Positions 8,023-60,643 of a stretch of DNA of 64,000 bases are shown here, piece by piece. Source of the stretch: a bacterium (GTDB lineage Bacteria > Sysuimicrobiota > Sysuimicrobiia > Sysuimicrobiales > Segetimicrobiaceae). The stretch covers positions 1 through 64,000 of the forward strand of contig DASYZR010000097.1 of NCBI GenBank assembly GCA_035945995.1. The letters run 5' to 3'. Each line of letters begins with the position of its first letter. The first letter of the stretch is position 1. The notes under the pieces were generated by a model. It was given only the letters and a program-made list of their open reading frames with translations. It did no database searches and was not told the origin of the DNA. Position numbers and translations under genes: made by a program.

Positions 8023-9020
8023 CCCCCGCCGCCACGCCCACGGCCGTCGCCACGCTCCTGCCCACGACGACGGTCGGGAGCTTTCCGAAGCCGCCGTATT
8101 TGCTCGAGGCGCGCCGCAAAGTCTCGCGCAGGCAGATGGACGCGCAGGCACTCGCATCGCTCGAGCGGCAGGCCACCGAGGAATGGATCCGCCGTCAGGA
8201 AGAGCTCGACATCGACATCCTCGTCGACGGCGAGATGTACCGTGGCGACATGGTGGCGTTCTTCGCCGACCACATGGACGGCTTCGAGATCGCCGGCCTC
8301 GTGCGGTCGTACGGCAACCGCTACTATCCGAAGCCCGTGGTCGTGCGGCCGGTCGGCCGGCGCGGGCCGCTGACCGTCGACTGGTTCCGTCTCGCTCAGG
8401 GGCTCACGCCCCGGCCGGTCAAAGGAATGCTGACCGGTCCGTACACGATCGCGGAGTGGTCCTTCAACGAGTACTATCCGTCGCGGCGGGAACTCGTGAT
8501 GGAGCTCGCGCGGGCGATCCATGACGAAGCCGTCGACCTCGAGCGCGCCGGGGCCCGGTACATCCAGATCGACGAGCCGGCCATTCACACGCGGCCCGAA
8601 GAGGACTTCGAGCTCGCCGTCGAGGCGATGGAGATCGTCACCCGCGGGCTCCGCGCCTACACCGTCACGCACGTCTGTTACGGCGACGTCCCGAAGATCT
8701 ATCCGGCGATGCTGCGCCTGGCGGTGGACCAGATCGACCTGGCGCTCAAGAACGACGACTTCGCGCTGCTCGACACGTTCCGCTCGCCGCAGTTCACCAA
8801 GGACATCGGTCTCGGCGTGCTGGATGCGCACAGCCACCGGCCCGAGACGCCGGACGAGATCATCGACGGCATTCGGCGGACGCTCGACGTCATCCCGGCG
8901 GCGCAGATCTACGTGTCGCCCGACTGCGGCCTCAAGACGCGGACGGCCGACGAAACGGTCGCCAAGCTCGCCGCGATGGTGGAGGGGACGCGCCGAATGC
9001 GGAAGGAGCTGGCGGCATAG
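8019..9020 (+). CDS. MetE C-terminal-like (core-MetE) methyltransferase
   Basis: Homologue of the catalytic half of cobalamin-independent methionine synthase, 333 residues. It starts with the characteristic TTTVGSFPKPP and has YIQIDEPAI, the zinc ligands H-x-C in VTHVCYGD and a late cysteine in SPDCGLKTR. The glutamate that normally lies between them (in an HEFA-like stretch) is not obvious; the corresponding region reads DLALKNDD. Known core-MetE families take methyl groups from folate or corrinoid donors, so the donor here is undecided. The ATG overlaps the stop of the paralogue upstream and has GGAGG six bases before it. A folate/zinc homocysteine methyltransferase is encoded separately at 30.6 kb. 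Confidence 0.85.
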   Translation: MTPAATPTAVATLLPTTTVGSFPKPPYLLEARRKVSRRQMDAQALASLERQATEEWIRRQEELDIDILVDGEMYRGDMVAFFADHMDGFEIAGLVRSYGNRYYPKPVVVRPVGRRGPLTVDWFRLAQGLTPRPVKGMLTGPYTIAEWSFNEYYPSRRELVMELARAIHDEAVDLERAGARYIQIDEPAIHTRPEEDFELAVEAMEIVTRGLRAYTVTHVCYGDVPKIYPAMLRLAVDQIDLALKNDDFALLDTFRSPQFTKDIGLGVLDAHSHRPETPDEIIDGIRRTLDVIPAAQIYVSPDCGLKTRTADETVAKLAAMVEGTRRMRKELAA

Positions 9021-9049
9021 CGCCGCCCGTTCCACCGCTCGTCGTCGTC

Positions 9050-9865
9050 GTGGAGGCGCAGCGGCTCATCCGCGCCTCCCGCGAGCACGTCTTTGCCCAT
9101 GTGGCGCACCCCGAACACCTGCCGCGATACGGGGCGCCGCTCTGGCTTTCCGCGGACGTCGAGGACCGGCGCGGCGGCGAGCCCCTCCTCGCGCTCCGGG
9201 GCTACTTTGCCGGCCTGCCCGTTGAGGCCGTGGTCCGCACGGCCGCGCGCGCCCCGCACAGCATCGAAATCGTCCAGGTGCGTGGCACGTTGCGCAGCCT
9301 GTCCCTGCGGCTCACGGCCGAACAGTCCGACGACGGGACCGTGCTGCGCTGCCGCGTGGACGTCGATGCCGGCATCCCGATGCTGTCGGACGAGGCCGCG
9401 CGGCACTTTTTGGTCCAGCACGTCGAGCGGATGCTTGACCGGCTGCGACTCGCCGCGGAGCGGCGTCCGCCCCAGCGGCGGCCGGTGCGGCCTTCGGCGA
9501 AGGCGGCCGAGGCGGCGGACGGTACCCCCGAGGGGGGCGATGCGGCGCCCGACGAGATCCCATCGGGCCCGGACGCGGTCCCGCCGGACGGCGGTCCCCA
9601 GGAAGCCCCCGCGGACGCGACGGCGTTCTCGCCCGAAGCCGTTCGGGCCCGCCGCCCATCGTCGTTCTCCCGGGCACGCGCTCCGAAGGCGGCGGCTCGC
9701 CAAATCGCCACCCCGCCCCCGGTCGGGGGTCAGGCGGAGGCCGCCACACCCGGTTCTCCGGGATCGGGGCGCCGCCGGCGCCGCCGGCGGCGCCGGGGCC
9801 GCGGCACCTCCGGGCGGGGTGATGCGGGCGCCGGTGCAACTCCGGACGGTGCGCCGGACGCGTAA
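9050..9865 (+). CDS. SRPBCC (START-like) domain protein with a basic disordered tail
   Basis: Residues 1-145 look like a START/SRPBCC helix-grip domain: N-terminal strand with VFAHVAHPEHLPRY, alternating strands, and a long C-terminal helix (HFLVQHVERMLDRLRL). Such domains bind hydrophobic ligands (polyketide cyclases, Coq10-like). The rest, residues about 150-271, is low-complexity Ala/Pro/Arg sequence ending with a run of nine arginines and RGRG, unlike its neighbours in structure though not in base composition. GTG 9050 is the likely start, with a weak ribosome site. Function is unknown. Confidence 0.72.
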   Translation: MEAQRLIRASREHVFAHVAHPEHLPRYGAPLWLSADVEDRRGGEPLLALRGYFAGLPVEAVVRTAARAPHSIEIVQVRGTLRSLSLRLTAEQSDDGTVLRCRVDVDAGIPMLSDEAARHFLVQHVERMLDRLRLAAERRPPQRRPVRPSAKAAEAADGTPEGGDAAPDEIPSGPDAVPPDGGPQEAPADATAFSPEAVRARRPSSFSRARAPKAAARQIATPPPVGGQAEAATPGSPGSGRRRRRRRRRGRGTSGRGDAGAGATPDGAPDA

Positions 9866-9910
9866 CGCCCCGATCATGCGATTTCTTACGATATTTACGG
9901 CTATCATTGC

Positions 9911-9966
9911 TTGACAGTGCCCCGTCCCGAGACTATGCTCGTGTAGGCAGTGAGAATTGTTCTCAC
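9911..9966 (+). promoter_or_regulatory. Promoter and Fur-family-type operator before mrp
   Basis: TTGACA at 9911-9916, 17 bases, TATGCT at 9934-9939, preceded by an unusually AT-rich patch (9876-9910) that could act as an UP element. Just after the predicted transcript start is a perfect palindrome, GTGAGAATTGTTCTCAC (9950-9966). Its core fits the 7-1-7 layout of Fur-family boxes (TGATAATNATTATCA), matching 11 of 14 defined positions. The leader to the ATG at 10104 is about 155 bases, otherwise without recognised structure. Confidence 0.65.
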
Positions 9967-10103
9967 CGGCCGGTCGGTGCGCGCCGACGCGCAGCAAGTT
10001 CCGGCCGCCGTCCCCGGCGTGAGCATGGGCATGTGGAGCGACCGAGGCCGCGCGGTCGGCGGCTCTCGCGCGTGGTGACGCGTGAGGTGCGAGGAGGCGT
10101 GGA

Positions 10104-11180
10104 ATGGCGGCACGTTCGATCGCGGTGACGCGCGAGCAGGTGCTCGACGCGCTGCGGGACGTCATGGATCCGGAGCTCCACAAGAGCATCGTGGAGCTCA
10201 ACATGGTCAAGGAGATCGCGATTCGCGACGGCGCGGTCCGGGTCGACGCGCTGCTGACGATCAGCGGCTGTCCCCTTCGGGAGACGATCACCGAGTCGAT
10301 CCGTGAGAAGGTCCGCGCCCTGCCCGGCGTCGACACGGTGGACGTCCAGCTCGGCGTGATGACGCAAGAGCAGCGCCAAGGCCTGATGGCGCAGCTGCGC
10401 CCCGGTCCGCAGCGGCAGTCCCCGCTGCTGTCGCCCACGTCCGCGACCCGCATCCTCACCGTCGCCAGCGGCAAGGGCGGGGTGGGCAAGTCCACCGTGA
10501 CGACGAACCTCGCCGTGGCGCTGGCACGGCGCGGACGCACCGTCGGCATCGTCGACGCCGACGTCTACGGGTTCAGCATCCCGAAGATGCTCGGGGTGAG
10601 CGGCAAGCCGACGATGATCGACCAGATGATGATCCCGCTGGAGCGTTGGGGCGTGCGCGTGATCTCGATCGGCTTCCTGGTGGACGAGAACGAAGCGGTG
10701 ATGTGGCGCGGCCCCATGCTGCACAAGGCGATCACGACGTTCCTCGGCGAGGTGTACTGGGGCGACGTGGACGACCTGCTGATCGATCTGCCGCCGGGGA
10801 CCGGCGACGTGTCGCTCACCATCGCGCAAACCCTGCCGCGCGCGGAGATGCTGATCATCACGACGCCGCAGGAGACGGCGACCGGGGTGGCCTACCGCGC
10901 CGGCCGCATGGCGGAGAAGGTCAACACGCCCGTCGTCGGGGTCGTGGAGAACATGTCCTACTACCTGCCGGCGCCGGGGGCGGAGCCGGTCTACATCTTC
11001 GGGAAGGGCGGAGGCGAGCGGCTGGCCGGCCTGGTGCAGGCCCCGCTCCTCGGGCAGATCCCGCTCGATCCGGCGATCCGCGAGGCGGGAGACCGCGGCC
11101 GGCCGGTCACGGCGGTGGCACCCGACGCCGCGTCGGCGCGGGTGTTCTACGAGATCGCCGACGCGTTGCTGCGCGACTGA
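10104..11180 (+). CDS. mrp: Mrp/NBP35-family ATP-binding Fe-S carrier with N-terminal MIP18 (DUF59) domain
   Basis: P-loop NTPase that carries or assembles Fe-S clusters. Residues 1-85 form the MIP18/DUF59 domain (LRDVMDPELHKSIVELNMV). The deviant Walker A is GKGGVGKSTVTTN at about residue 120, followed by DADVYG and DLPPGTGD. The CxxC pair found in many Mrp proteins after ENMS is missing here: the segment reads ENMSYYLPAPGAEP. Actinobacterial Mrp proteins also lack it. ATG 10104 follows a strong GAGGAGG. The Fur-like palindrome upstream suggests iron-dependent control. The DUF169 gene downstream overlaps its stop codon. Confidence 0.93.
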   Translation: MAARSIAVTREQVLDALRDVMDPELHKSIVELNMVKEIAIRDGAVRVDALLTISGCPLRETITESIREKVRALPGVDTVDVQLGVMTQEQRQGLMAQLRPGPQRQSPLLSPTSATRILTVASGKGGVGKSTVTTNLAVALARRGRTVGIVDADVYGFSIPKMLGVSGKPTMIDQMMIPLERWGVRVISIGFLVDENEAVMWRGPMLHKAITTFLGEVYWGDVDDLLIDLPPGTGDVSLTIAQTLPRAEMLIITTPQETATGVAYRAGRMAEKVNTPVVGVVENMSYYLPAPGAEPVYIFGKGGGERLAGLVQAPLLGQIPLDPAIREAGDRGRPVTAVAPDAASARVFYEIADALLRD

Positions 11181-44939: not shown

Positions 44940-44967
44940 GTCGTTGGAGGGAAACACCGCTCCCGTT

Positions 44968-45987
44968 ATGGGTCGCACGCTCGTGCAACGTGTCCTGGTA
45001 ACCGGCGGGGCCGGGTTCATAGGCGCGCACTTGGTTCGCGCGCTCGTCCGCCGGGGTCACGCCGTGCGCGTGCTCGACGACATGAGCGCGGGGACGGCCG
45101 AGAACCTGAGCCGGGCGCTCGACGTGCCGCTGCCGGCGGTACGGGAGGCGCTCGGCACGGCGCGCGCGCGCTGGGTCCGTCTGGCCGATGGATGCGAGGC
45201 ACGGATCGGGGACGTTCGTGATACGGCGACGGCGGCGGACGCCGCCGGGGGCGTCCACGCGATTCTCCACCAGGCCGCCCTTCGATCGGTGTCCCGGTCG
45301 CTCGCCGATCCGCTGAGGACGCACGAGGTCAACATGACGGGGACGCTGAACGTCTTGGAAGCGGCGAGGCAGGCGGGGGTCCGGCGAGTGGTCGTGGCCT
45401 CATCGTCCTCCGTGTACGGCGACACGGATCTGCCCAAGCATGAGGGCCAGCTCCCCCAGCCCAAGTCGCCGTACGGGGCCGCGAAGCTGGCCGCGGAGGC
45501 ATACTGTCAGGCCTATGCACGCGCGTTCGGCCTGTCGACGATCGCGCTACGCTACTTCAATGTCTTCGGTCCGTGGCAGGACCCGTCCTCGGAGTATGCC
45601 GCGGTGATCCCCAAGTTCATCCGGCTCGCCATGCAGGGGGAGCCCCTGCCGGTGCATGGAGACGGGGAGCAGTCGCGCGACTTCACGTACGTCGAAAACG
45701 TCGTCGACGCAAACCTGGCCGCGATGGACGCCGACGCATCCGCGATCGCGCTGAATATTGGAACAGGCACCCGATGCACGTTGCGGGCATTGATCGAGCA
45801 GATCGGGCACATCCTCGGGCGCAGCGTCGAGTGTACGTACGGGCCGTCCCGGCCCGGGGACGTTCAGCATTCGGAGGCGGACATCACGCTCGCGGCCAGG
45901 ACGATCGGATACGTGCCTCGCGTGGACATGGCCGCCGGGCTGCGCCGCACGATCGAGTCCATGCAGCCGGCGCCGACGAGGATGTAG
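44968..45987 (+). CDS. NAD-dependent sugar epimerase/dehydratase (UDP-GlcNAc/GalNAc 4-epimerase-like)
   Basis: Short-chain-type sugar-nucleotide epimerase of 339 residues: NAD motif VLVTGGAGFIGAHL, catalytic SSSSVYGDT and SPYGAAK (Ser-x24-YxxxK), and the substrate region YFNVFGPWQDPSSEYAAVIPKF that resembles WbpP-type UDP-GlcNAc 4-epimerases. ATG 44968 is chosen; the frame extends 24 bases further to a TTG with no better ribosome site. It begins the long plus-strand gene series, six bases before the pseB-like gene. Confidence 0.9.
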   Translation: MGRTLVQRVLVTGGAGFIGAHLVRALVRRGHAVRVLDDMSAGTAENLSRALDVPLPAVREALGTARARWVRLADGCEARIGDVRDTATAADAAGGVHAILHQAALRSVSRSLADPLRTHEVNMTGTLNVLEAARQAGVRRVVVASSSSVYGDTDLPKHEGQLPQPKSPYGAAKLAAEAYCQAYARAFGLSTIALRYFNVFGPWQDPSSEYAAVIPKFIRLAMQGEPLPVHGDGEQSRDFTYVENVVDANLAAMDADASAIALNIGTGTRCTLRALIEQIGHILGRSVECTYGPSRPGDVQHSEADITLAARTIGYVPRVDMAAGLRRTIESMQPAPTRM

Positions 45988-45993
45988 CCGGCC

Positions 45994-46974
45994 ATGGATT
46001 GGACGCGGAGCAGCGTGCTCATCACCGGGGGAACGGGGTCGTTTGGCCGCAAGTTCGTCGACGTCATGTTGCGACGGTACGGGCCGGCCAAATTGGTGGT
46101 GTTCAGCCGCGACGAGCTCAAACAGGAAGAGATGCGGCGCGCGCATCCCGACACGGGAGGATCGCCGATTCGGTACTTCATCGGCGACGTGCGTGATCGG
46201 GAGCGCCTCGCCCGGGCCTTCCGCGGCGTGGACGTCGTCGTCCACGCCGCCGCGCTGAAGCAGGTGCCGGCCTGCGAATATAATCCGTTCGAGGCCGTGC
46301 AGACCAACATCATCGGCGCGAAGAACGTGATCGACGCGGCGATCGATCAAGGCGTTCAGAAGGTCGTCGCCATCAGCACCGACAAGGCCGTGAATCCCGT
46401 CAATCTGTACGGCGCGACGAAGTTGTGCGCGGAGAAGCTCTTCGTCCAGGGGAATTCGTACTCCGGGGCGACGGGTGCGCGCTTCAGTTGCGCGCGGTAC
46501 GGCAACGTGGTCGGCAGCCGGGGAAGCGTGATCCCCGCGTTCCTCGAACAGCGGAAGAACGGCGCAATCACGGTCACGGATCCGCGGATGACGCGCTTTT
46601 GGATCACCCTGGACGAGGGCGTCGCCTTCGTGATCCGCTGCATCGAGCAGATGCACGGCGGAGAGATCTTCGTGCCGAAGATTCCCAGCATGAATATCAT
46701 GGACCTGGTCACCGCGGTGGCGCCGGAATGCCGGGCCGAGTACATCGGCATCAGACCCGGCGAAAAGGTGCACGAGGTGCTGGTCTCGGAGGACGAGGCG
46801 CGCCACACGGTGGAATTGGACGACATGTATGTCATTCAACCGGCGCACCCCTGGTGGCAGTCCGCAAACTGGACCGAGGCGCGCCCGCTCCCGGACGGGT
46901 TCTCGTTCACCAGCGACGCCAATGCGCGCTGGTTGTCCGTCGAGGAACTACAACGCCTGATTGTGTCGCTCTGA
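45994..46974 (+). CDS. pseB: UDP-N-acetylglucosamine 4,6-dehydratase (inverting), PseB
   Basis: A 326-residue SDR enzyme that starts pseudaminic acid synthesis by making the 4-keto-6-deoxy-AltNAc nucleotide. It shows SVLITGGTGSFGRKFV, DVRDRERL, AAALKQVPACEYNPFEAVQTN and the STDKAVNPVNLYGATK signature with catalytic Asp/Lys and YxxxK. MTRFWITLDEGVAFV and RPGEKVHEVLV are also PseB-like. Downstream genes for PseI, PseH and PseG support the pathway. Confidence 0.93.
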   Translation: MDWTRSSVLITGGTGSFGRKFVDVMLRRYGPAKLVVFSRDELKQEEMRRAHPDTGGSPIRYFIGDVRDRERLARAFRGVDVVVHAAALKQVPACEYNPFEAVQTNIIGAKNVIDAAIDQGVQKVVAISTDKAVNPVNLYGATKLCAEKLFVQGNSYSGATGARFSCARYGNVVGSRGSVIPAFLEQRKNGAITVTDPRMTRFWITLDEGVAFVIRCIEQMHGGEIFVPKIPSMNIMDLVTAVAPECRAEYIGIRPGEKVHEVLVSEDEARHTVELDDMYVIQPAHPWWQSANWTEARPLPDGFSFTSDANARWLSVEELQRLIVSL

Positions 46975-46989: not shown

Positions 46990-48018
46990 ATGGCCGCGCG
47001 ACGGGAGACGCCGTTGCGCTTCGCGGTAATCGGCTGCGGGTCCATCGGGCAACGGCACGTGCGCAACCTCGTCGCCCTGGATGCGGGCGAGGTCGTCGCG
47101 TTCGACGTTCGGGAGGACCGGCGTCGTGACGTGGCGTCGCGGTTCGGGATCGAGGTTCCGGACCGCCTGGACGAGGTGTGGCGGCGCGGGCCGGACGCCG
47201 TGGTGGTCGCGGTCCCCCCTCACGCCCACGTGCCGCTCGCGCTTCAGGCCGCCGCGCGCGGGTGTCACCTGTTCATCGAGAAGCCCTTGTCGGACCGTTG
47301 GGACGGCACCGAGGAGTTGCTGGACGCGGTGCGCGCGCGGGGCCTGGTGACGCTCGTCGGGTGCAACATGCGGTTCCACCCCGGGCTCGTGACGGTCAAG
47401 AAGCTGCTGGAAGACGGCGCGATCGGCCGCGTGGTAGCGGGGCGGGCGGAGGTTGGGCAGTACCTTCCGGACTGGCGCCCCGCGGAAGACTACCGGCAGG
47501 CGTACAGCGCCAGGCGGGACCAGGGGGGTGGGGTGATTCTCGATGCCATCCACGAGCTCGACTACCTCCGGTGGATGCTCGGCGACGTCGGCGAGATCGC
47601 CTGCTTTTCCGGCAGGCTCGGCCGCCTCGAGATCGACACCGAGGACACCGCCGCGATGCTGCTGCGCTTCACGAGCGGGGCAATCGGCGAGGTCCACCTC
47701 GACTATCTCCAGCGGGCGTACAGCCGAACGTGCCATCTCATCGGGGAAGAGGGCACGATTCGATGGGACTATTCCGCCGGCGAGGTGCGGTGCTACACGG
47801 CCTCGGAGCGACGGTGGCGGAGCTGGGCGAACCCGGCCGGGTGGGAGCCGAATCACATGTACATCGACGAGATCCGCCACTTCGTCGAGTGTCTGACCCG
47901 CGACGCGCACCCGGCGGCGGACGTCTTCGAGGCGGCGCAGGTGCTCAAGATCGCGCTCGCGGCGAAAACGTCCGCCCGCTCCGGCGGCGTCGTTCGCCTC
48001 GAGGGGAGCCAAGGGTGA
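46990..48018 (+). CDS. Gfo/Idh/MocA-family oxidoreductase
   Basis: NAD(P)-dependent oxidoreductase of 342 residues with FAVIGCGSIGQRHVRNL (dinucleotide site), FIEKPLS (conserved EKP, catalytic Lys), and GVILDAIHELDYLRWM (catalytic His region). Such enzymes oxidise or reduce sugar hydroxyls at C2 or C3. In the standard pseudaminic pathway there is no such step, so it either changes the sugar or makes a different one. It starts 15 bases after pseB and its stop overlaps the next gene (GTGA). Confidence 0.9.
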   Translation: MAARRETPLRFAVIGCGSIGQRHVRNLVALDAGEVVAFDVREDRRRDVASRFGIEVPDRLDEVWRRGPDAVVVAVPPHAHVPLALQAAARGCHLFIEKPLSDRWDGTEELLDAVRARGLVTLVGCNMRFHPGLVTVKKLLEDGAIGRVVAGRAEVGQYLPDWRPAEDYRQAYSARRDQGGGVILDAIHELDYLRWMLGDVGEIACFSGRLGRLEIDTEDTAAMLLRFTSGAIGEVHLDYLQRAYSRTCHLIGEEGTIRWDYSAGEVRCYTASERRWRSWANPAGWEPNHMYIDEIRHFVECLTRDAHPAADVFEAAQVLKIALAAKTSARSGGVVRLEGSQG

Positions 48019-50081
48019 CACCGCCTCCCCGGGTCATCGCCATCGTGCAGGCCCGCTTGGGCGCGACGCGGCTCCCCGGGAAGGTGTTGGCGGAGATCGC
48101 GGGTCGGCCGATGCTCTGGCACGTGGTCGGCCGCGTGCGCATGGCACCGTCGATTCACGAGGTGATCGTGGCCACCTCGACGTCGCCCGCGGACGATGCG
48201 ATCGCGGAGTATTGCCGGCGCAACGGCATCCCGTGCGAGCGCGGAAGCGAAGAGGACGTCCTGGACCGGTTCTACCAGGTCGCGCGGCGTCACGCCGCCG
48301 CCGCCGTGGTTCGCGTGACCGCGGATTGCCCGCTCATCGATCCGGGCGTGATCGAGCGGGTCGTCCAAACCTACCTACGCGGCGGGTACGACTATGTCAC
48401 CAACACGTTGCGATACACCTACCCCGACGGCCAGGACACCGAGGTGTTTTCCGCTGCGGCGCTCGAAGCGGCGTGGCGGGAGGCGTCCTCGCCGGCAGAC
48501 CGTGAGCACGTGACCGCGTATCTCCGGACGTCGGGCGGGTTTCGACTGAAGAACGTCGAACACGACGTGGATTTGTCGGACCGCAACGTCCGTCTCACGG
48601 TCGATGAGCCGGCCGACCTTGAGTTTGTGCGCGCCGTGTACGCGCGGCTCAGCTCGGCGCCCGCTCCGATCACGCTGGCGGACGTCCTGGCGTTGCTCGA
48701 AAGGGAGGCTTCACTGATGGAGCTGAACCAGAGGATCGTGCGCAACGAGGGTTACTATCGGTCGCTCGCGGGCGAACCGGCGGTGCCGCCGCGCGTGCGA
48801 TCGCTCGACCGCTCCCGCGAACTGAAGGCCAGGGCGGAGCGCGTCGTTCCGTCCTGCACGCAGACGTTCAGCAAGGGGCCGACGCAGTTCATCCAGGGGG
48901 TGGCGCCGGCGTTTCTGGCGCGGGGCCGGGGCAGCCACGTGTGGGACGTGGACGGCAATGAGTACATCGACTACCCGATGGCGCTCGGCCCGATCATCCT
49001 GGGTCACAATTACCCGGCCGTCACGGACGCCGTGACGCGTCAAATGGGCGACGGTCTCACATTCTCGCTGCCTCACCCGCTCGAGGTCGAAGTCGCCGAA
49101 ATGCTGACGGAGATCATCCCCTGCGCCGACATGGTGCGGTTCGGCAAGAACGGATCGGATGCGACGTCCGGCGCGGTGCGGGCGGCCCGGGCGTACACGG
49201 GACGGGAGATCATCGCATGTTGCGGGTATCACGGGTGGCAGGACTGGTACATCGGCACGACGACCCGCAACAAGGGGGTGCCGAAAGCGGTCCGCGAGCT
49301 GACCGTCCCCTTCGAATTCAACAATGTCGACAGCCTCCGCCGCGTGTTCACCGAGCACCCCGGCCAAGTCGCGGGGGTGATCATGGAACCGGTCGGCGTG
49401 ATCGAGCCGCGCCCCGGCTTCCTGCAGCAGGTTCGTGACTTGACCGGCCGCGAGGGCGCCCTGCTCATCTTCGACGAAATCGTCACGGGCTGCCGCTTGG
49501 CACTCGGGGGCGCGCAGGAGTACTTCGGCGTCACGCCGGACCTGGCGTGTTTCGGGAAGGGCATGGCCAACGGCTATCCGATTGCCGCGGTCGTGGGCCG
49601 CCGGGACATCATGGAGCTCTTCGACGAGATTTTCTTTTCGTTCACCTTCGGCGGTGAGGCGCTGTCGCTCGCCGCCACAGCCGCGACGATCGGGGAGTTG
49701 CGGTCGAAGAGCGTCATCCCGTATCTGTGGGCCCAAGGCAGGAAGCTGCAGGACGGGTATCACGTGCTGGCGAGGCAGTGCCGCCTTGAGCGGCACACGG
49801 AGTGCATCGGCCTGCCACCCCGTACGGTGATCACGTTCAGGGACGAGGCCGGAGCGGAATCGCTGCTGCTCAAGAGCCTGTTCCAGCAAGAGTGCCTCAA
49901 GCGCGGGGTGCTGTTCTCGGGGGGGCAGAACGTGTCCTTTAGTCACAGCGACGCCGACATCGACTACACCCTCCGGGTGTACGGCACGGCCATGGGGATC
50001 CTCGCGGACGCGATCGAGGCGGGGGACGCCGAACGGCGGCTCGAAGGAGCGCCGGTCGAACCCGTCTTCCGCCGTGCGTAG
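48015..50081 (+). CDS. SpsF-type cytidylyltransferase fused to a class III (GSA-like) aminotransferase
   Basis: One 688-residue chain with two enzymes. Residues 1-240 are an SpsF-like cytidylyltransferase: IVQARLGATRLPGKVLAEI (CTP loop), VTADCPLIDPGV, and TVDEPADLEFV. Residues about 265-680 are a PLP aminotransferase of the glutamate-1-semialdehyde/class III type: VWDVDGNEYIDYPMALG, GSDATSGAVRAARAYTG, IFDEIVTGCR, and the PLP lysine Lys515 in CFGKGMANGYP. There is no stop or frameshift between them. It takes the place where PseC (a DegT enzyme) and PseF (a NeuA-like enzyme) would be expected. The GTG start overlaps the Gfo/Idh gene. Confidence 0.93.
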   Translation: MTPPPRVIAIVQARLGATRLPGKVLAEIAGRPMLWHVVGRVRMAPSIHEVIVATSTSPADDAIAEYCRRNGIPCERGSEEDVLDRFYQVARRHAAAAVVRVTADCPLIDPGVIERVVQTYLRGGYDYVTNTLRYTYPDGQDTEVFSAAALEAAWREASSPADREHVTAYLRTSGGFRLKNVEHDVDLSDRNVRLTVDEPADLEFVRAVYARLSSAPAPITLADVLALLEREASLMELNQRIVRNEGYYRSLAGEPAVPPRVRSLDRSRELKARAERVVPSCTQTFSKGPTQFIQGVAPAFLARGRGSHVWDVDGNEYIDYPMALGPIILGHNYPAVTDAVTRQMGDGLTFSLPHPLEVEVAEMLTEIIPCADMVRFGKNGSDATSGAVRAARAYTGREIIACCGYHGWQDWYIGTTTRNKGVPKAVRELTVPFEFNNVDSLRRVFTEHPGQVAGVIMEPVGVIEPRPGFLQQVRDLTGREGALLIFDEIVTGCRLALGGAQEYFGVTPDLACFGKGMANGYPIAAVVGRRDIMELFDEIFFSFTFGGEALSLAATAATIGELRSKSVIPYLWAQGRKLQDGYHVLARQCRLERHTECIGLPPRTVITFRDEAGAESLLLKSLFQQECLKRGVLFSGGQNVSFSHSDADIDYTLRVYGTAMGILADAIEAGDAERRLEGAPVEPVFRRA

Positions 50082-50099: not shown

Positions 50100-51149
50100 A
50101 TGGTTCGGGGGATTCGGATTGGCGGCCGGCGGGTCGGGGACGGCGAACTCTGCTTTGTAGTGGCGGAGGCGGGGAGCAATCACAACGGCCTGTGGGAGCA
50201 GGCCGTGCGCCTCGTCGATGTGGCCGCGTCCGCGGGGGTGGATGGGGTCAAGTTCCAGGTGTTTCGAGCCGACCGGCTGTACCCGAAACACGCCGGCACC
50301 AGCGACTACCTGAACATTTCCCGATCGATTTACGATATCATCGCCGAGAGCGAGATGCCGTACGACTGGCTTCCGGACCTCGCGGCGCACTGCCATGCGC
50401 GGGACGTACTCTTCCTCGCGTCCGCGTTCGACGAAGAATCGGCCGATCGCCTGGTTCCGTATGTGGACGCCTTCAAGATCGCGTCGTATGAGTTGACGCA
50501 CATCCCCCTCATCCGGCATGTCGCGCGGTCCGGAAAGCCCGTGATTGTGTCCACGGGCGGCGCGACCCTGGACGAGGTGGCGGAGAGCGTCGACGCCGTT
50601 CGAGAGACGGGGAACGAGGGGCTCATTCTGACGCAGTGCACCGCGGCGTATCCGGCTCCCTTCGAGTCCCTGAACATCCGTGTCATACCCGCGATGAAGG
50701 CGGCGTTCGGCGTACCCGTCGGGCTGTCCGATCACTCGCGGGATCCACTGGTGGGGCCGCTGGCCGCGGTGGCGGTCGGCGCGAATCTTCTCGAGAAGCA
50801 CTTCACGTTGAGCAACGAGCTGCCCGGAGTGGACCATCGGTTCGCCGTGGAGCCGGGCGAACTTCGCACGATGGTGCAGAAGCTCCGGGAGACGGAGCAC
50901 GCGCTGGGCGGCGCGGACAAGGCCGTGCACCCGGTCGAGGAGGAATTGCGGGCGTTTGCGCGCCGCAGCGTGTTCGCGGTGCGCGACATCAAGACGGGAG
51001 AACTGCTGACGCGCGAGAACGTCGCGGTACTGCGCTGCGGCAAGCTGCCCGCGGGGTTGCCGCCGAGAGAATTTGACGGGGTGCTCGGAAAGCGCGCGCG
51101 GCGAGACATTCCGGCCGAGCGGGGGATCGTGCGCGACGACTATGCTTGA
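50100..51149 (+). CDS. pseI: Pseudaminic/nonulosonic acid synthase (NeuB family, PseI)
   Basis: A 349-residue NeuB-family synthase condensing phosphoenolpyruvate with a six-carbon amino sugar. It begins FVVAEAGSNHNG, continues with VKFQVFRADRLY, SYELTHIPLI, GLSDHSRDP and ANLLEKHFTL, and ends with a SAF (antifreeze-like) domain (SVFAVRDIKTGELLTRENV). The SAF domain with FDGVLGKRARRDI is normal. It starts 18 bases after the fusion gene and overlaps the acetyltransferase gene by eight bases. Confidence 0.94.
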   Translation: MVRGIRIGGRRVGDGELCFVVAEAGSNHNGLWEQAVRLVDVAASAGVDGVKFQVFRADRLYPKHAGTSDYLNISRSIYDIIAESEMPYDWLPDLAAHCHARDVLFLASAFDEESADRLVPYVDAFKIASYELTHIPLIRHVARSGKPVIVSTGGATLDEVAESVDAVRETGNEGLILTQCTAAYPAPFESLNIRVIPAMKAAFGVPVGLSDHSRDPLVGPLAAVAVGANLLEKHFTLSNELPGVDHRFAVEPGELRTMVQKLRETEHALGGADKAVHPVEEELRAFARRSVFAVRDIKTGELLTRENVAVLRCGKLPAGLPPREFDGVLGKRARRDIPAERGIVRDDYA

Positions 51150-51666
51150 GACGCCCGACGTGACACGGCGCCGCGTGAGCGTCCGCGCGGCCGCGATGGA
51201 GGATTGCCGCCGGGTCTGGGAGTGGAGGAACGCGCGCGGGAGCCGGGCCGCCTCCTTCACGACACGAGAGATTCCCTACGCGGAGCACCAGGAGTGGTTT
51301 GCCCGGGCGGTCGTCGATCCCGGCGTGCGATTTTTCATCGTCCTCTGTGACGGGCGCGCGGTCGGGTACGTCCGGTTTGTCATCAGCGGGGAAGACGCCG
51401 AGATCAGCGTCGGCATCGATCACGAGGAACAGGGCAAGGGCTATGGGACCGCCGCGATCGCCATTGCATCACAGGTGGTGCTGGCCGGGCAGGTGCTGCG
51501 AATCATCGCTCACGTGAAGACGAGCAATCCGGCATCCCGAACGGCGTTCGAGCGCGCCGGGTTTTTCTTGGGCGGCACCACGCGGATCGCGGGTGTTGAA
51601 GCGTGGGAGCTCGTCTCTCACAGGAAGACGGATTCTGCCGACGGCCGCCGGCCGGCGCCGGGCTGA
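51142..51666 (+). CDS. pseH: GNAT acetyltransferase, PseH-like
   Basis: A 174-residue GNAT enzyme. The acetyl-CoA loop is HEEQGKGYGTAAI, followed by a beta-bulge (RIIAHVKTSNPASRTAFERAGF). By position between pseI and pseG it should acetylate the 4-amino group of the UDP-sugar. ATG 51142 is used as it starts MLETPDVTRRRVSVRAA and overlaps the pseI end. Confidence 0.88.
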   Translation: MLETPDVTRRRVSVRAAAMEDCRRVWEWRNARGSRAASFTTREIPYAEHQEWFARAVVDPGVRFFIVLCDGRAVGYVRFVISGEDAEISVGIDHEEQGKGYGTAAIAIASQVVLAGQVLRIIAHVKTSNPASRTAFERAGFFLGGTTRIAGVEAWELVSHRKTDSADGRRPAPG

Positions 51667-51672
51667 CCGCCG

Positions 51673-52713
51673 ATGACGTGCGACGCGGCACGGCCGCGCG
51701 CGGTTCTATTCCGCGTGGACGCGACGCCCGAGAGCGGCCTCGGGCATCTGCAGCGGTGCCTGTCCCTTGCGCTCGCTCTGCGCCGCGCGGGCGCCGTCTC
51801 GAGCTTCCTCAGCGACGGACCGGTCGAGGCAAGAGGCCGGATCACGGAGTGTGGCTTCGAGGCACTGGACTTGGGCCGCGCCGCGCCGTGGAGCCCCCAG
51901 GACCTGACGCACACCGTTGCCGCGGCCGCACGCCTCGGGGTGACGCATATGGTCGTAGACTCCTACTATATGACCGGGGACTACCTCGCACGCCTGCGGG
52001 ATGCCGGGTGCTTCGTGGCCGGGATCGACGATCTGGCCGCATATCCGTTTCCATGTCAATTGGTGGTCAACGGCGGCGCCCACGCCTGCCAGCTGGCGTA
52101 TCGGTCATCGGGAGACACCCGGTTCTTGCTGGGTCCACGCTACGTCCTGCTGCGCCCCGAGTTTTGGAGCGTGCCCCCTCGCGCGCCGCGCTCGAGCCTC
52201 CGGCACGTGCTGATCATGGTTGGCGGAGCGGACCGGCAGAATCTCATGCCGGGGCTGCTCGATCTGGTGGATGCGTGCCCCGGAGAGTTCTCTATGACGG
52301 CGATCATCGGTCCGTTTTTCGGGCATCGCGGCGACCTGGAGGCGGCCGTCACGCGGTGCCGGCGGCCGGTCAGACTTGTGCACTGCCCCGACTCAGTCCG
52401 CGACCTGATGCTGGACGCGGACCTGGCCGTGTCCGCCGGAGGGCAGACCCTGTACGAGCTCGCCGCGACCGGGACTCCGGCCGTGGCGATCGTTATTGCC
52501 GAGAACCAGACCGCCAGTGTGCGGGCGTTGGCCGCGGCCGGCGTCGTGCGCGCGGTCTACGGCGTCGATCAGGCAGACTTTCGCGAACGTGCCCGGGACG
52601 CGATTGCCGCGCTGCTTCAGCGACCGGACGATCGGACGGCGATGGCCGCGGCCGGCCGTGAGTTGGTTGACGGCCGCGGGGCCCAACGCGTGTCGGATGC
52701 GCTGCTGGCCTAA
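51673..52713 (+). CDS. pseG: UDP-sugar hydrolase PseG
   Basis: A 346-residue GT-B-fold hydrolase that releases UDP from the diacetamido sugar, with water in place of an acceptor. It has LFRVDATPESGLGHLQRCLSLA, containing the catalytic histidine of the PseG family, then HVLIMVGGADRQN and DLAVSAGGQTLYELAATGTPAVAI. The stop and the start of the next gene share one base (TAATG). Confidence 0.92.
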   Translation: MTCDAARPRAVLFRVDATPESGLGHLQRCLSLALALRRAGAVSSFLSDGPVEARGRITECGFEALDLGRAAPWSPQDLTHTVAAAARLGVTHMVVDSYYMTGDYLARLRDAGCFVAGIDDLAAYPFPCQLVVNGGAHACQLAYRSSGDTRFLLGPRYVLLRPEFWSVPPRAPRSSLRHVLIMVGGADRQNLMPGLLDLVDACPGEFSMTAIIGPFFGHRGDLEAAVTRCRRPVRLVHCPDSVRDLMLDADLAVSAGGQTLYELAATGTPAVAIVIAENQTASVRALAAAGVVRAVYGVDQADFRERARDAIAALLQRPDDRTAMAAAGRELVDGRGAQRVSDALLA

Positions 52714-57900: not shown

Positions 57901-58683
57901 ATGCGTACGATCGGCATAATCCCCGCTCGGATGGGATCCTCCCGGTTTCCGGGCAAACCGCTGGTCTCGATCCTCGGCGCCCCGATGGTGGTGCACGTCT
58001 ATTTCCGCGCGCGCATGTGCACATCGCTCGACGCGGTGTACGTGGCAACGCCGGACCAGGAGATACGGGCGTCCGCGGAGCGCTACGGGGTGCCGGTAAT
58101 CATGACCTCTCCCCACCACGAGCGGGCGACCGACCGGGTGGCGGAGGCGGTCGAGCGGACCGAGGATCGGAGCGAGATCGTGGTCAACATCCAGGGCGAT
58201 GAGCCGATGCTCTATCCCGAAATGGTGGACGCGCCGGTTCGCGCGCTCGCGGAGGATCCGACGTTGGTCTGCACGAACCCGGTCGCGCGCATTCGCGACC
58301 GCGAAACCTTCGAGAACCGTAACGTGATCAAGGTCGTGACCGACCGCGGCGGCCTGGTGCTGTACATGTCGCGAGAGCCGATTCCGACGACGGTCCGTCT
58401 GGGGGACGCGGTTCCGATGTACCAGCAACTGGTCGTGCTGCCGTTTCGTCGAGACTTTCTCAAGACCTTTACCAGACTCCCGCAAACGCCGCTGGAGCAG
58501 GCAGAGTCCGTCGACATGCTTCGCGTGCTCGAGTACGGCTACAAGATCAAGGCCGTCGAGGTCCCGCGCGTCACCATCAGCGTGGACGTGCCGTCCGATG
58601 TGGCCCGTATCGAAGCGGCGCTGAGGCACGATCCTCTCGTGGACGGCTACCTCCCCAGGCTGCGCCTCCAGGGCTCCGAATAG
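57901..58683 (+). CDS. kdsB: KdsB-like CMP-sugar (3-deoxy-manno-octulosonate or related) cytidylyltransferase
   Basis: A 260-residue cytidylyltransferase starting with GIIPARMGSSRFPGKPLVSILG, the CTP-binding loop of KdsB, then HHERATDRVAEAV and VVNIQGDEPMLYPEMV. It activates an eight- or nine-carbon keto acid as a CMP sugar. No KdsA or KdsD is in the window. It is the second cytidylyltransferase of this locus, after the SpsF-type domain at 48 kb, so either a second CMP-sugar is made or one is the true activator of the nonulosonic acid. ATG 57901 is 19 bases after the SDR gene. Confidence 0.88.
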   Translation: MRTIGIIPARMGSSRFPGKPLVSILGAPMVVHVYFRARMCTSLDAVYVATPDQEIRASAERYGVPVIMTSPHHERATDRVAEAVERTEDRSEIVVNIQGDEPMLYPEMVDAPVRALAEDPTLVCTNPVARIRDRETFENRNVIKVVTDRGGLVLYMSREPIPTTVRLGDAVPMYQQLVVLPFRRDFLKTFTRLPQTPLEQAESVDMLRVLEYGYKIKAVEVPRVTISVDVPSDVARIEAALRHDPLVDGYLPRLRLQGSE

Positions 58684-58711: not shown

Positions 58712-60643
58712 GTGTTGCCGGTGGTGAGTTCCCTGCACACCTCGGTGGTGATCCGGGCCTACAACGAGGAGCGGCACCTCGAGGGTCTGCTGCGGCGGCT
58801 TCGTGAACAAGAGTATGGTCAGGGCATCGAGATCATCGTCGTCGACTCGGGATCGATCGACCGGACGCGGGAGATTGCGCGCCGGCATGCGGACCAGGTT
58901 GTGCGGATCGAGAGTGCCGACTTTACGTTCGGCTACTCGCTCAACGCGGGTGTGCAACACAGCACCGGACGGTACGTGGCGATCATTTCCGCCCATGCCC
59001 TTCCGATCGACAGCGCCTGGCTCACGCATCTGACCGCGCCGCTTGGGCAGACGCGCACCGCCATGGTGTGCGGACGTCAACTCGGCGTGGCCGGCTCGAA
59101 GTTCTCAGAGGCGATGGACCTTGCCCGAACCTTCGGACTCGAGCCCGTCGCGCTCACGCCGCCGAACTTCTTTGCCAATAACGCCAACTCCGCCCTCCGG
59201 CGGGAGTTATGGGAAGCGCACCCGTTTGATGAGTCGCTGCCGGGGTTGGAGGACGTGGAGTGGATCAAGCACTGGATGCAGCAGGGGTACCGGGGAGCCT
59301 ACGAGCCGCGGGCGGCGGTGTACCACATCCACGAAGAGACATGGCGGCAAGTTCGCCGTCGGTACTACCGCGAAGCCGTAGCCAGGCGGATCATCGGGGT
59401 TCCCGCGGCCTGGGGCATGGCCGGCGAGCTGGCGGGCGACGGCGCCCGTCTGATCGCGGATCTTGTCGCGGCCGGGCGCCGGGGCGTGCTCGTGACCAAG
59501 ACGCCCGAGATCCTGCGCTTCCGCTGGGAAAAGGCCTGGGGGACCGCCGTCGGGTTGGCCCACGGGGCCCGGTACGCGCGAAGCCCGCAGCAGAAGCGGG
59601 ACATGTTCTTCGACGCACGGTACGGCGCCGTGGTGATTCGCGGCCCCGGCCGGGCGTCGTTCGAGGAGATCGCGATGCCGGTCATCAAGCCGGGCGAGGT
59701 GCTCATCAAGGTGGCGTACGAAGGGGTGTCCGGTGCGGATCTCGAGATTTTCGACGGATCCCTGGGTTGCTACCAAACGGGCGAGGCGACGTATCCGATC
59801 GTGCCCGGACACGAGTTTTCGGGGCGGATCGTCAAGACCGGGGTGAACGTCAACGGGTGCGCCGAGGGGGATCGCGTCGTCGTCGAGCACATCCAGAGCT
59901 GCGGCGTGTGCCAGTACTGCCTGAGCGGCGATGGGATTCGCTGCGCGGATCGTCAGGAGGTCGGGGTGATCGGCCGGAACGGCGGCTACGCCGAATACGT
60001 GGTCGCCCCGGCGCGCTTCGTGCACACGCTCCCCGCCTCCATGGATCTCAAAGCCGCGGCACTGTGCGAACCGGCGGCCGTGGTCCTGAAGGGACTGAGG
60101 CGGCTCGAACGTCTGCGGCGGCCGGGCGAGGCGGCCGGCTCCTGCGGGATCGTCGGCGCCGGGCCGATCGGACACCTGGCCGCGCGCATTTTGCAAACGC
60201 GGGGCTATCGCGTCGCCGTCTACGATCAGAATCCGGACCGCCGGGCGCAATTGACCGGCACGGGGATCCAGACCTTCGATTCGCTGAGCGATCTCATGCG
60301 GTTTGAGATTATCGTTGAGGCCACCGGCGACCCCGGGGTGTGGCAGACCATCCTTCTGGAGAGCCGGCCGGGGGCCGTGTTGCTGCTGATCGGATTGCCC
60401 TACGTTCGACGGGAGTTCGCGATGCATTCGATCGTGGCGTACGACAAGATCGTGATCGGTTCGGTCGGCGGCTCGGGCGCGGATTTCGACGAAGCGATCC
60501 AGGTCCTGCGCACTCTGGATCTCGGTCCGTTCGTGCACACGGTGATCCCCCTCCGGGACTTTGCGACGGCCTGGCAACTGTTCCGGACGCGCAGGCACCT
60601 GAAGGTGCTCCTCTGCGCGGATCCGGACGTGGATGGCGCGTGA
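58712..60643 (+). CDS. Glycosyltransferase family 2 fused to a zinc-type alcohol dehydrogenase (MDR)
   Basis: A 643-residue fusion. Residues 1-295 are a GT2 (SVVIRAYNEERHLEGLL, VVDSGSIDRTREIA, LPGLEDVEWIKHWM). Residues about 300-640 are a medium-chain dehydrogenase: GHEFSGRIVKTG (His-Glu), four clustered cysteines CGVCQYC...C at about 395-412 (structural zinc), and a Rossmann motif CGIVGAGPIGHLA. The usual first catalytic cysteine (GxCGTD-like) is Ser340 in EGVSGADLEIF. No stop or frameshift divides them. Start is uncertain among GTG 58712, 58721 and 58724. Confidence 0.9.
   Translation: MLPVVSSLHTSVVIRAYNEERHLEGLLRRLREQEYGQGIEIIVVDSGSIDRTREIARRHADQVVRIESADFTFGYSLNAGVQHSTGRYVAIISAHALPIDSAWLTHLTAPLGQTRTAMVCGRQLGVAGSKFSEAMDLARTFGLEPVALTPPNFFANNANSALRRELWEAHPFDESLPGLEDVEWIKHWMQQGYRGAYEPRAAVYHIHEETWRQVRRRYYREAVARRIIGVPAAWGMAGELAGDGARLIADLVAAGRRGVLVTKTPEILRFRWEKAWGTAVGLAHGARYARSPQQKRDMFFDARYGAVVIRGPGRASFEEIAMPVIKPGEVLIKVAYEGVSGADLEIFDGSLGCYQTGEATYPIVPGHEFSGRIVKTGVNVNGCAEGDRVVVEHIQSCGVCQYCLSGDGIRCADRQEVGVIGRNGGYAEYVVAPARFVHTLPASMDLKAAALCEPAAVVLKGLRRLERLRRPGEAAGSCGIVGAGPIGHLAARILQTRGYRVAVYDQNPDRRAQLTGTGIQTFDSLSDLMRFEIIVEATGDPGVWQTILLESRPGAVLLLIGLPYVRREFAMHSIVAYDKIVIGSVGGSGADFDEAIQVLRTLDLGPFVHTVIPLRDFATAWQLFRTRRHLKVLLCADPDVDGA

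Follow-up and report, generated by a model that had tools for sequence, protein, structure and literature searches.

Described Pathways and the SpsF-Aminotransferase Fusion

In the pathway to CMP-pseudaminic acid (CMP-Pse), which proceeds through PseB, PseC, PseH, PseG, PseI, and PseF, the N5 nitrogen derives from N-acetylglucosamine, N7 is introduced by PseC, C9 is made a deoxy carbon by PseB, and O6 is held in the ring. The oxygen of the C8 hydroxyl belonged to the ring in the UDP-hexose and is released from it only once PseG and NeuB have acted. A gene cluster carried on a 64,000-nt stretch of bacterial DNA (hereafter the window, whose positions are used throughout; its contig beyond the window is denoted C97) shares PseB and PseG with this pathway and has a NeuB of the PseI family, and most related clusters also share PseC. 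However, PseF is replaced by an oxidoreductase, an SpsF-type cytidylyltransferase, and a class III aminotransferase (AT), the last two of which form a single chain in the window. We modestly favor the interpretation that this module substitutes for PseF by aminating the nonulosonic acid itself, probably at C8, before activation with CTP.

The closest experimental precedent for chemistry at C8 is EpaA, a CTP_transf_3-aldo/keto reductase (AKR) fusion from Acinetobacter prophages that turns Pse into 8-epi-Pse in concert with the dehydrogenase EpaB, as demonstrated by nuclear magnetic resonance (PMC12053666). A gene for an SpsF-AKR protein similar to EpaA is also present in a Vibrio that has an isomeric form of PseAc2 (PMC7371886). 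Like the window fusion, EpaA joins an N-terminal CTP_transf_3 domain to a second enzyme, which acts on C8 of the nonulosonate, and like the module as a whole, it has a separate oxidoreductase partner and occurs in phages. However, the window fusion does not have the EpaA architecture, as an AT occupies the place of the AKR, and the net reaction of EpaA and EpaB is an epimerization.

A second point of comparison is the route to 8-amino-3-deoxy-D-manno-octulosonic acid (8-amino-Kdo). There, the dehydrogenase KdnB, the pyridoxal phosphate (PLP)-dependent aminotransferase KdnA, and the CTP-transferase KdsB act on the free ulosonic acid, following the same three-enzyme logic. Differences are that the sugar has eight carbons, the proteins are separate, and KdnA is of the DegT type. 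A Shewanella study cited in PMC5036845 assigns the formation of 8-amino-Kdo to KdnB and KdnA. Among nine-carbon sugars, an 8-amino-3,5,7,8,9-pentadeoxy nonulosonic acid is found in the O-polysaccharide of Flexibacter maritimus (PMC3210612). The SpsF protein of Bacillus subtilis, which provides the CMP-legionaminic acid step and is needed downstream of legionaminic acid synthesis (PMC7439481), is the same type of cytidylyltransferase as the N-terminal half of the fusion, but stands alone and has no class III AT.

A literature search combining pseudaminic or nonulosonic acids with glutamate-1-semialdehyde returned only a Legionella gene list, which offers no interpretation of the fusion. The CMP-pseudaminate pathway variant described here is new in that we found no paper that interprets the module. 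We had also entertained rkpM and rkpN of S. fredii as an instance of this system, but rejected the idea, as RkpM proved to be a typical PseC and RkpN to be similar to PseF.

An Intact Fusion Within a Three-Part Module

The original prediction, made from the letters of the window, held that SpsF and AT are joined in one chain with intact catalytic motifs, and both statements are borne out. The chain matches CTP_transf_3 (PF02348) over amino acids 8-188 with 112 bits (cut-off 22.6) and Aminotran_3 (PF00202) over amino acids 298-581 with 168 bits (cut-off 30.5). Its N-terminal half carries the A-R-x-x-(S/A)-T-R-L-P-x-K motif of SpsF-like cytidylyltransferases. Its C-terminal half has the PLP lysine (K515) and PLP aspartate (D487) of class III enzymes, with K515 located within FGKGMANG and aligned by phmmer to the catalytic lysine of glutamate-1-semialdehyde aminomutases. 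Each of 50 fused sequences compared (50 of 50) retains K515, D487, R14, R19, and K23, and hence neither half looks dead. An inactive AT half had been named in advance as an outcome that would count against the prediction, and the invariant active site speaks to the contrary.

The reading frame remains open farther upstream, to 47178 (967 aa). We take the GTG at 48015 as the probable start, since relatives begin at the SpsF domain and since this codon overlaps the stop of the Gfo/Idh/MocA (Gfo) oxidoreductase gene by four bases (GTGA, 48015-48018) and is preceded by a purine-rich stretch. Because the GTG lies inside the Gfo stop, the two genes are probably translationally coupled. The same fusion occurs in genomes of 61 other species, and thus is no assembly artifact. 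An AlphaFold model of the whole chain has a pLDDT of 91 and a pTM of 0.87, and its C-terminal half adopts the glutamate-1-semialdehyde aminomutase fold, with FumI giving the top target-normalized TM-score (0.91). FumI and the aminomutases share both fold and catalytic residues with the AT half, but are only about 30% identical to it, belong to other pathways, and have no fused CTP domain.

The N-terminal half scores 19.8 bits against PseF (TIGR03584), below the curated cut-off of 205.7, and therefore is not PseF. The AT half is a class III enzyme and not a DegT protein, and falls outside the PseC family (TIGR03588, cut-off 423.5 bits). Its closest NCBIfam model is PRK06209 (NF004856), where it reaches 440 bits against a curated cut-off of 486. 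Since the named models that come nearest are those of glutamate-1-semialdehyde aminomutases, the fusion might be regarded as a metabolic accident or as a HemL-like enzyme without a role in surface sugars. We consider this very improbable: no HemL model reaches its cut-off (268 bits versus 527.3 for TIGR00713), four other genes of the same genome score higher for HemL, and the locus context is kept in dozens of species from several phyla. The first two of these points led us to reject an assignment of the AT as HemL.

Relatives were collected in one scan of GTDB genomes: from 503 related stretches, we retained the best 80, which together with the window make up 81 loci. SpsF and AT are fused in 62 of these and not fused in 19. 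Nearly all of the split forms (18) keep the two genes side by side in unchanged order; in one locus (L054), the AT stands alone without an SpsF partner. At least 14 changes between fused and split forms are seen on the AT tree. The possibility that split homologs might turn up in unrelated contexts does not hold for this close family, whose split forms adjoin SpsF in the same clusters. Two loci, L033 (6657-8769) and L073, carry a close AT (77 and 69% identical) beside a far more distant CTP-transferase (~26%), which shows that the CTP partner of the AT can be swapped. In L073, a single open reading frame (ORF) just before the AT (8564-10723) joins a C-terminal piece of Gfo to a second NeuB and to a divergent CTP-transferase, and may represent either a genuine fusion of NeuB with SpsF or an effect of the assembly.

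The unit adjoins a Gfo oxidoreductase in 44 of the 81 loci and, in the slot that Gfo takes elsewhere, an AKR of about 290 aa in 26 (one AKR identity was checked by Pfam), while both together are found in none of the 81. The remaining 11 loci, many of them on short contigs, have neither. Fisher's exact test gives p ~1e-12 for this exclusivity, a value that is only indicative because the loci are related and the test ignores relatedness. For this reason, the partner swaps on the AT tree (at least nine changes between Gfo and AKR) make the better argument. The three parts can also be joined outright: a Gfo-SpsF-AT chain of ~1030 aa is present in seven Acidobacteriota genomes (for example, L028:8984-12070), and an AKR-SpsF-AT chain of 982 aa in one gammaproteobacterial metagenome-assembled genome (L061). 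AlphaFold modeled one triple fusion with a pLDDT of 71 and a pTM of 0.48, the Gfo part being poor due to a shallow alignment, and this model was not used. The unit is therefore oxidoreductase plus SpsF plus AT, of which the window fusion represents two-thirds. The original prediction had named SpsF and AT correctly and had overlooked the oxidoreductase.

The usual locus order is PseB-PseC-(oxidoreductase)-SpsF-AT-PseG-(GNAT)-NeuB. PseC is encoded in 57 of the 62 PseB-bearing loci (it is missing from the window, L018, L041, L050, and L063), and scores over cut-off in 45 of 50 genomes with the SpsF-AT unit. Because PseC is already in place, most clusters have the AT as their second aminotransferase. 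The claim that the fusion unites the first and last chemistries of the route is thus wrong for the usual cluster, where PseC performs the first amination and the AT is additional. PseF is over cut-off in none of the 50 genomes carrying the unit, and hence SpsF-AT is likely the activating enzyme. Of 16 control clusters with true PseF, drawn from a gammaproteobacterial sample, 14 have PseB and 13 have PseC, but none has Gfo, AKR, AT, or SpsF. Given that PseF clusters lack the parts of the module and that SpsF-AT genomes lack PseF, one gene, pseF, has been replaced by a three-part module. The earlier interpretation is in this way partly supported and improved: PseC is normally separate, PseF is missing, and an oxidoreductase completes the unit.

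Proposed Substrate and Site of Amination

We propose the following series of reactions. Pse or a close relative would be built by PseB, PseC, an acetyltransferase, PseG, and NeuB. Gfo in the window, or AKR in other lineages, would then oxidize one of the hydroxyls left free on the nonulosonic acid, with C8-OH the likeliest. The AT would transaminate the resulting ketone to an amine, yielding an 8-amino-8-deoxy nonulosonic acid, which the SpsF half would activate with CTP, and the fusion would favor delivery of this amino sugar to the site of activation. In the window only, the PseC step would be performed by another DegT protein (the best candidate is described below) or by the AT half itself.

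From these genes we infer the substrate, the C8 position, the order of amination before activation, any channeling, and the product. Because a second aminotransferase pairs with an oxidoreductase where PseC is already present, a further hydroxyl should be the group that is oxidized and transaminated. Fusion of the AT to the CTP enzyme suggests that SpsF and AT share a substrate molecule. With N5 and N7 accounted for, no hydroxyl on C9, and O6 engaged in the ring, free hydroxyls are left only at C4 and C8. FumI acts on a methyl-CH(NH2) end that resembles C8-C9, and so its top TM-score to the AT half can be counted in favor of C8.

Since C4-OH is the sole other free hydroxyl in general pathway chemistry, the oxidoreductase and AT could instead act there, or on an N-acyl group or a free 2,4-diacetamido hexose before NeuB, with the new amine not at C8. 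The frequency of GNATs in the clusters would agree with such a product. This placement is improbable, in that fusions with the CTP-transferase indicate a substrate in common with SpsF, the known natural aminated ulosonates are 8-amino compounds, and the EpaA/EpaB precedent is at C8.

A different objection concerns the UDP-hexose stage. The AT half could be a nonorthologous substitute for PseC that aminates C4 of UDP-4-keto-6-deoxy-L-AltNAc, with the SpsF fusion merely ensuring coexpression. The window invites this reading, as its cluster has PseB, a PseH-like GNAT, PseG, and NeuB but no PseC, and no gene of its genome is over the PseC cut-off, unlike in most relatives; the four other exceptions listed above likewise have PseB without PseC at the locus. 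However, PseC co-occurrence dismisses substitution as a general rule, and substitution would leave the constant Gfo or AKR partner and the loss of PseF unexplained. Moreover, the window contig itself carries DegT genes with PseC scores of 305 and 168 bits. We therefore judge PseC substitution to be unlikely overall, although it is the strongest of the alternatives, particularly where the window is concerned. For the proposal that amination occurs on the nonulosonic acid, and not on the UDP-hexose, the presence of PseC in most loci, the oxidoreductase partner, and the action of EpaA/EpaB on C8 are all favorable, while the PseC-free window is the place where the substitution reading persists.

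Alternatively, the oxidoreductase and PLP enzyme might invert a stereocenter, or perform other tailoring, with no net amine kept. EpaA and EpaB do epimerize C8 by way of an SpsF-AKR fusion, and the similar Vibrio cluster yields a PseAc2 isomer. However, EpaA and EpaB need no PLP enzyme, and the active site of the AT, invariant throughout, is an argument for amine chemistry, making this outcome quite unlikely.

Besides the missing PseC of the window, several observations weigh against amination of the finished sugar acid at C8. AKRs usually reduce, and therefore an epimerase-like role is possible in the AKR loci; likewise, Gfo-type and AKR-type modules may yield different products. Haloprofundus and Tsukamurella, among others, have more distant AT homologs (44-54% identical) that are not accompanied by SpsF, and such homologs serve outside nonulosonic acid clusters. 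In addition, the Legionella pneumophila Sg6/Sg12 locus (Lp6_762-775) encodes CapD, DegT, AKR, a CTP enzyme, a glutamate-1-semialdehyde-type AT, and PseG (PMC3694923), and looks like a putative AKR-type split version of the module. The sugar reported for non-1 serogroups of this species, in a study cited in PMC3210612, is an acetamidino nonulosonic acid with no 8-amine, which would also agree with an epimerization or other tailoring.

Replacement of 8-OH by NH2 in Pse5Ac7Ac gives, by arithmetic, C13H23N3O7, which is identical to the formula of the acetamidino form Pse5Ac7Am. Because of this identity, surveys based only on mass cannot distinguish 8-amino sugars from acetamidino ones. Quinoxalines at m/z 450 and 451 have been reported (PMC7371886). 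If our proposal is correct, 8-amino isomers could account for some of the sugars that were assigned as acetamidino from their mass, and a surface sugar would escape both present gene-based prediction and mass measurement. Prediction of pathways for sialic acid-like sugars relies on PseF- or NeuA-type activators, and a large set of clusters (the 503 related stretches of the scan) has the SpsF-AT unit, with PseF absent where tested. The module would likewise supply the missing genetics of 8-amino nonulosonic acids, a class so far known from chemistry. With the triple fusions, a single purified protein would suffice for a direct test of which reaction comes first. The broadest form of the proposal is that a widespread, interchangeable module of Gfo or AKR with SpsF and class III AT, often fused, replaces PseF in many phyla, a haloarchaeon, and phages to make CMP-8-amino-8-deoxy nonulosonic acids from the finished sugar acid. 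On this we are evenly divided.

The Window Cluster and Occurrences Elsewhere

The scores of PseB and PseG identify the window cluster as pseudaminic-type (Table 1). Its NeuB reaches 319 bits with NeuB_NnaB and 291 bits with PseI, both below cut-off, and has an aromatic residue at the Pse-diagnostic position. The true start of the GNAT gene is probably downstream of its first TTG.

Table 1. Genes of the window cluster and parts of the fusion
Feature	Position	Strand	Remarks
GalE/TviC-like gene	44944-45987		neighbor upstream of PseB
PseB, inverting UDP-GlcNAc 4,6-dehydratase	45994-46974	+	500 bits, above cut-off of 407.75
Gfo/Idh/MocA oxidoreductase	46990-48018	+	EKP motif; GTGA overlap with fusion at 48015-48018
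SpsF-aminotransferase fusion	48015-50081	+	688 aa, GTG start, no internal stop
N-terminal half, SpsF-type cytidylyltransferase (CTP_transf_3)	48015-48734	+	motif QARLGATRLPGK at aa 12-23
C-terminal half, class III (glutamate-1-semialdehyde aminomutase fold) PLP aminotransferase	48801-50078	+	PLP lysine K515 at 49557-49559
NeuB-family nonulosonic acid synthase	50100-51149	+	KIASYE motif, aromatic like Pse synthases (KIASFE)
GNAT acetyltransferase, PseH-like	51073-51666	+	35.5 bits, below cut-off of 93.1
PseG UDP-sugar hydrolase	51673-52713	+	174.6 bits, above cut-off of 153.55

The best PseC-like DegT gene of the window genome (304.9 bits) is located on the same contig, 28 kb downstream (C97:77974-79053), and a second, weaker PseC-like match lies at 63.5 kb of this contig. 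Among 11 near relatives of the window genome (two of the same genus and nine of the same family), only one has an AT, which is distant and stands alone; the window locus is thus sporadic and was probably acquired by transfer. Ten kilobases from the fusion, a second CTP-transferase of the KdsB subfamily (57901-58683, over the NF009905 cut-off) with two short-chain dehydrogenase/reductase (SDR) genes upstream may serve a second ulosonic acid. A single 643-aa ORF at 58712-60643 combines a GT2 glycosyltransferase with a zinc alcohol dehydrogenase.

Outside the set of 81 loci, the AT is above threshold in 79 of 396 genomes of a Bacteroidota sample. Most of the best-scoring loci examined from this sample represent another cluster, composed of SpsF, AT, an SDR, a KdsC-like phosphatase, and a short NeuB, often with the N- and C-terminal halves of transketolase as split genes; PseB, PseC, and PseG are not found in it. 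Loci of this kind are L128, L129, L132-L135, L137, L138, and L140-L144 in Bacteroidota and L178 on a Methylomagnum plasmid. Because PseB is absent, the AT there cannot serve a PseB-made UDP-hexose. As judged by gene content, this cluster fits action of the AT on an ulosonic acid or its precursor, and apparently constitutes an undescribed CMP-ulosonic acid route that starts from something other than the PseB product.

The module also extends to archaea and viruses. In the haloarchaeon Halorussus, Gfo adjoins split SpsF and AT genes, with DegT and NeuB nearby. The IMG/VR collection has 36 viral contigs with the AT, of which 34 carry SpsF, 22 carry Gfo, eight carry AKR, and none of the 36 carries both Gfo and AKR. 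In two viral contigs that were examined, a terminase large subunit gene is close to the module; one is L229 (165-11000), where it lies beside a Gfo-type cluster. Compact environmental phage clusters of this type (L226-L239, L241, L245, L251, L252, L255, and L257) encode Gfo, SpsF-AT, PseB, DegT, and NeuB, although not every part is present in each, and PseG is not found in them. From its genes, the cluster looks like a phage-encoded nonulosonic acid pathway. Phage contigs L246, L247, L248, and L249 instead carry PseB, AKR, SpsF, and AT. In L248 (1283-12213), the AT is followed by an MptE-like protein, whose domain (PF01973) is that of Maf-type glycosyltransferases, and by a portal protein, with a terminase gene upstream. 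It is possible that phages of this AKR type glycosylate their virions.

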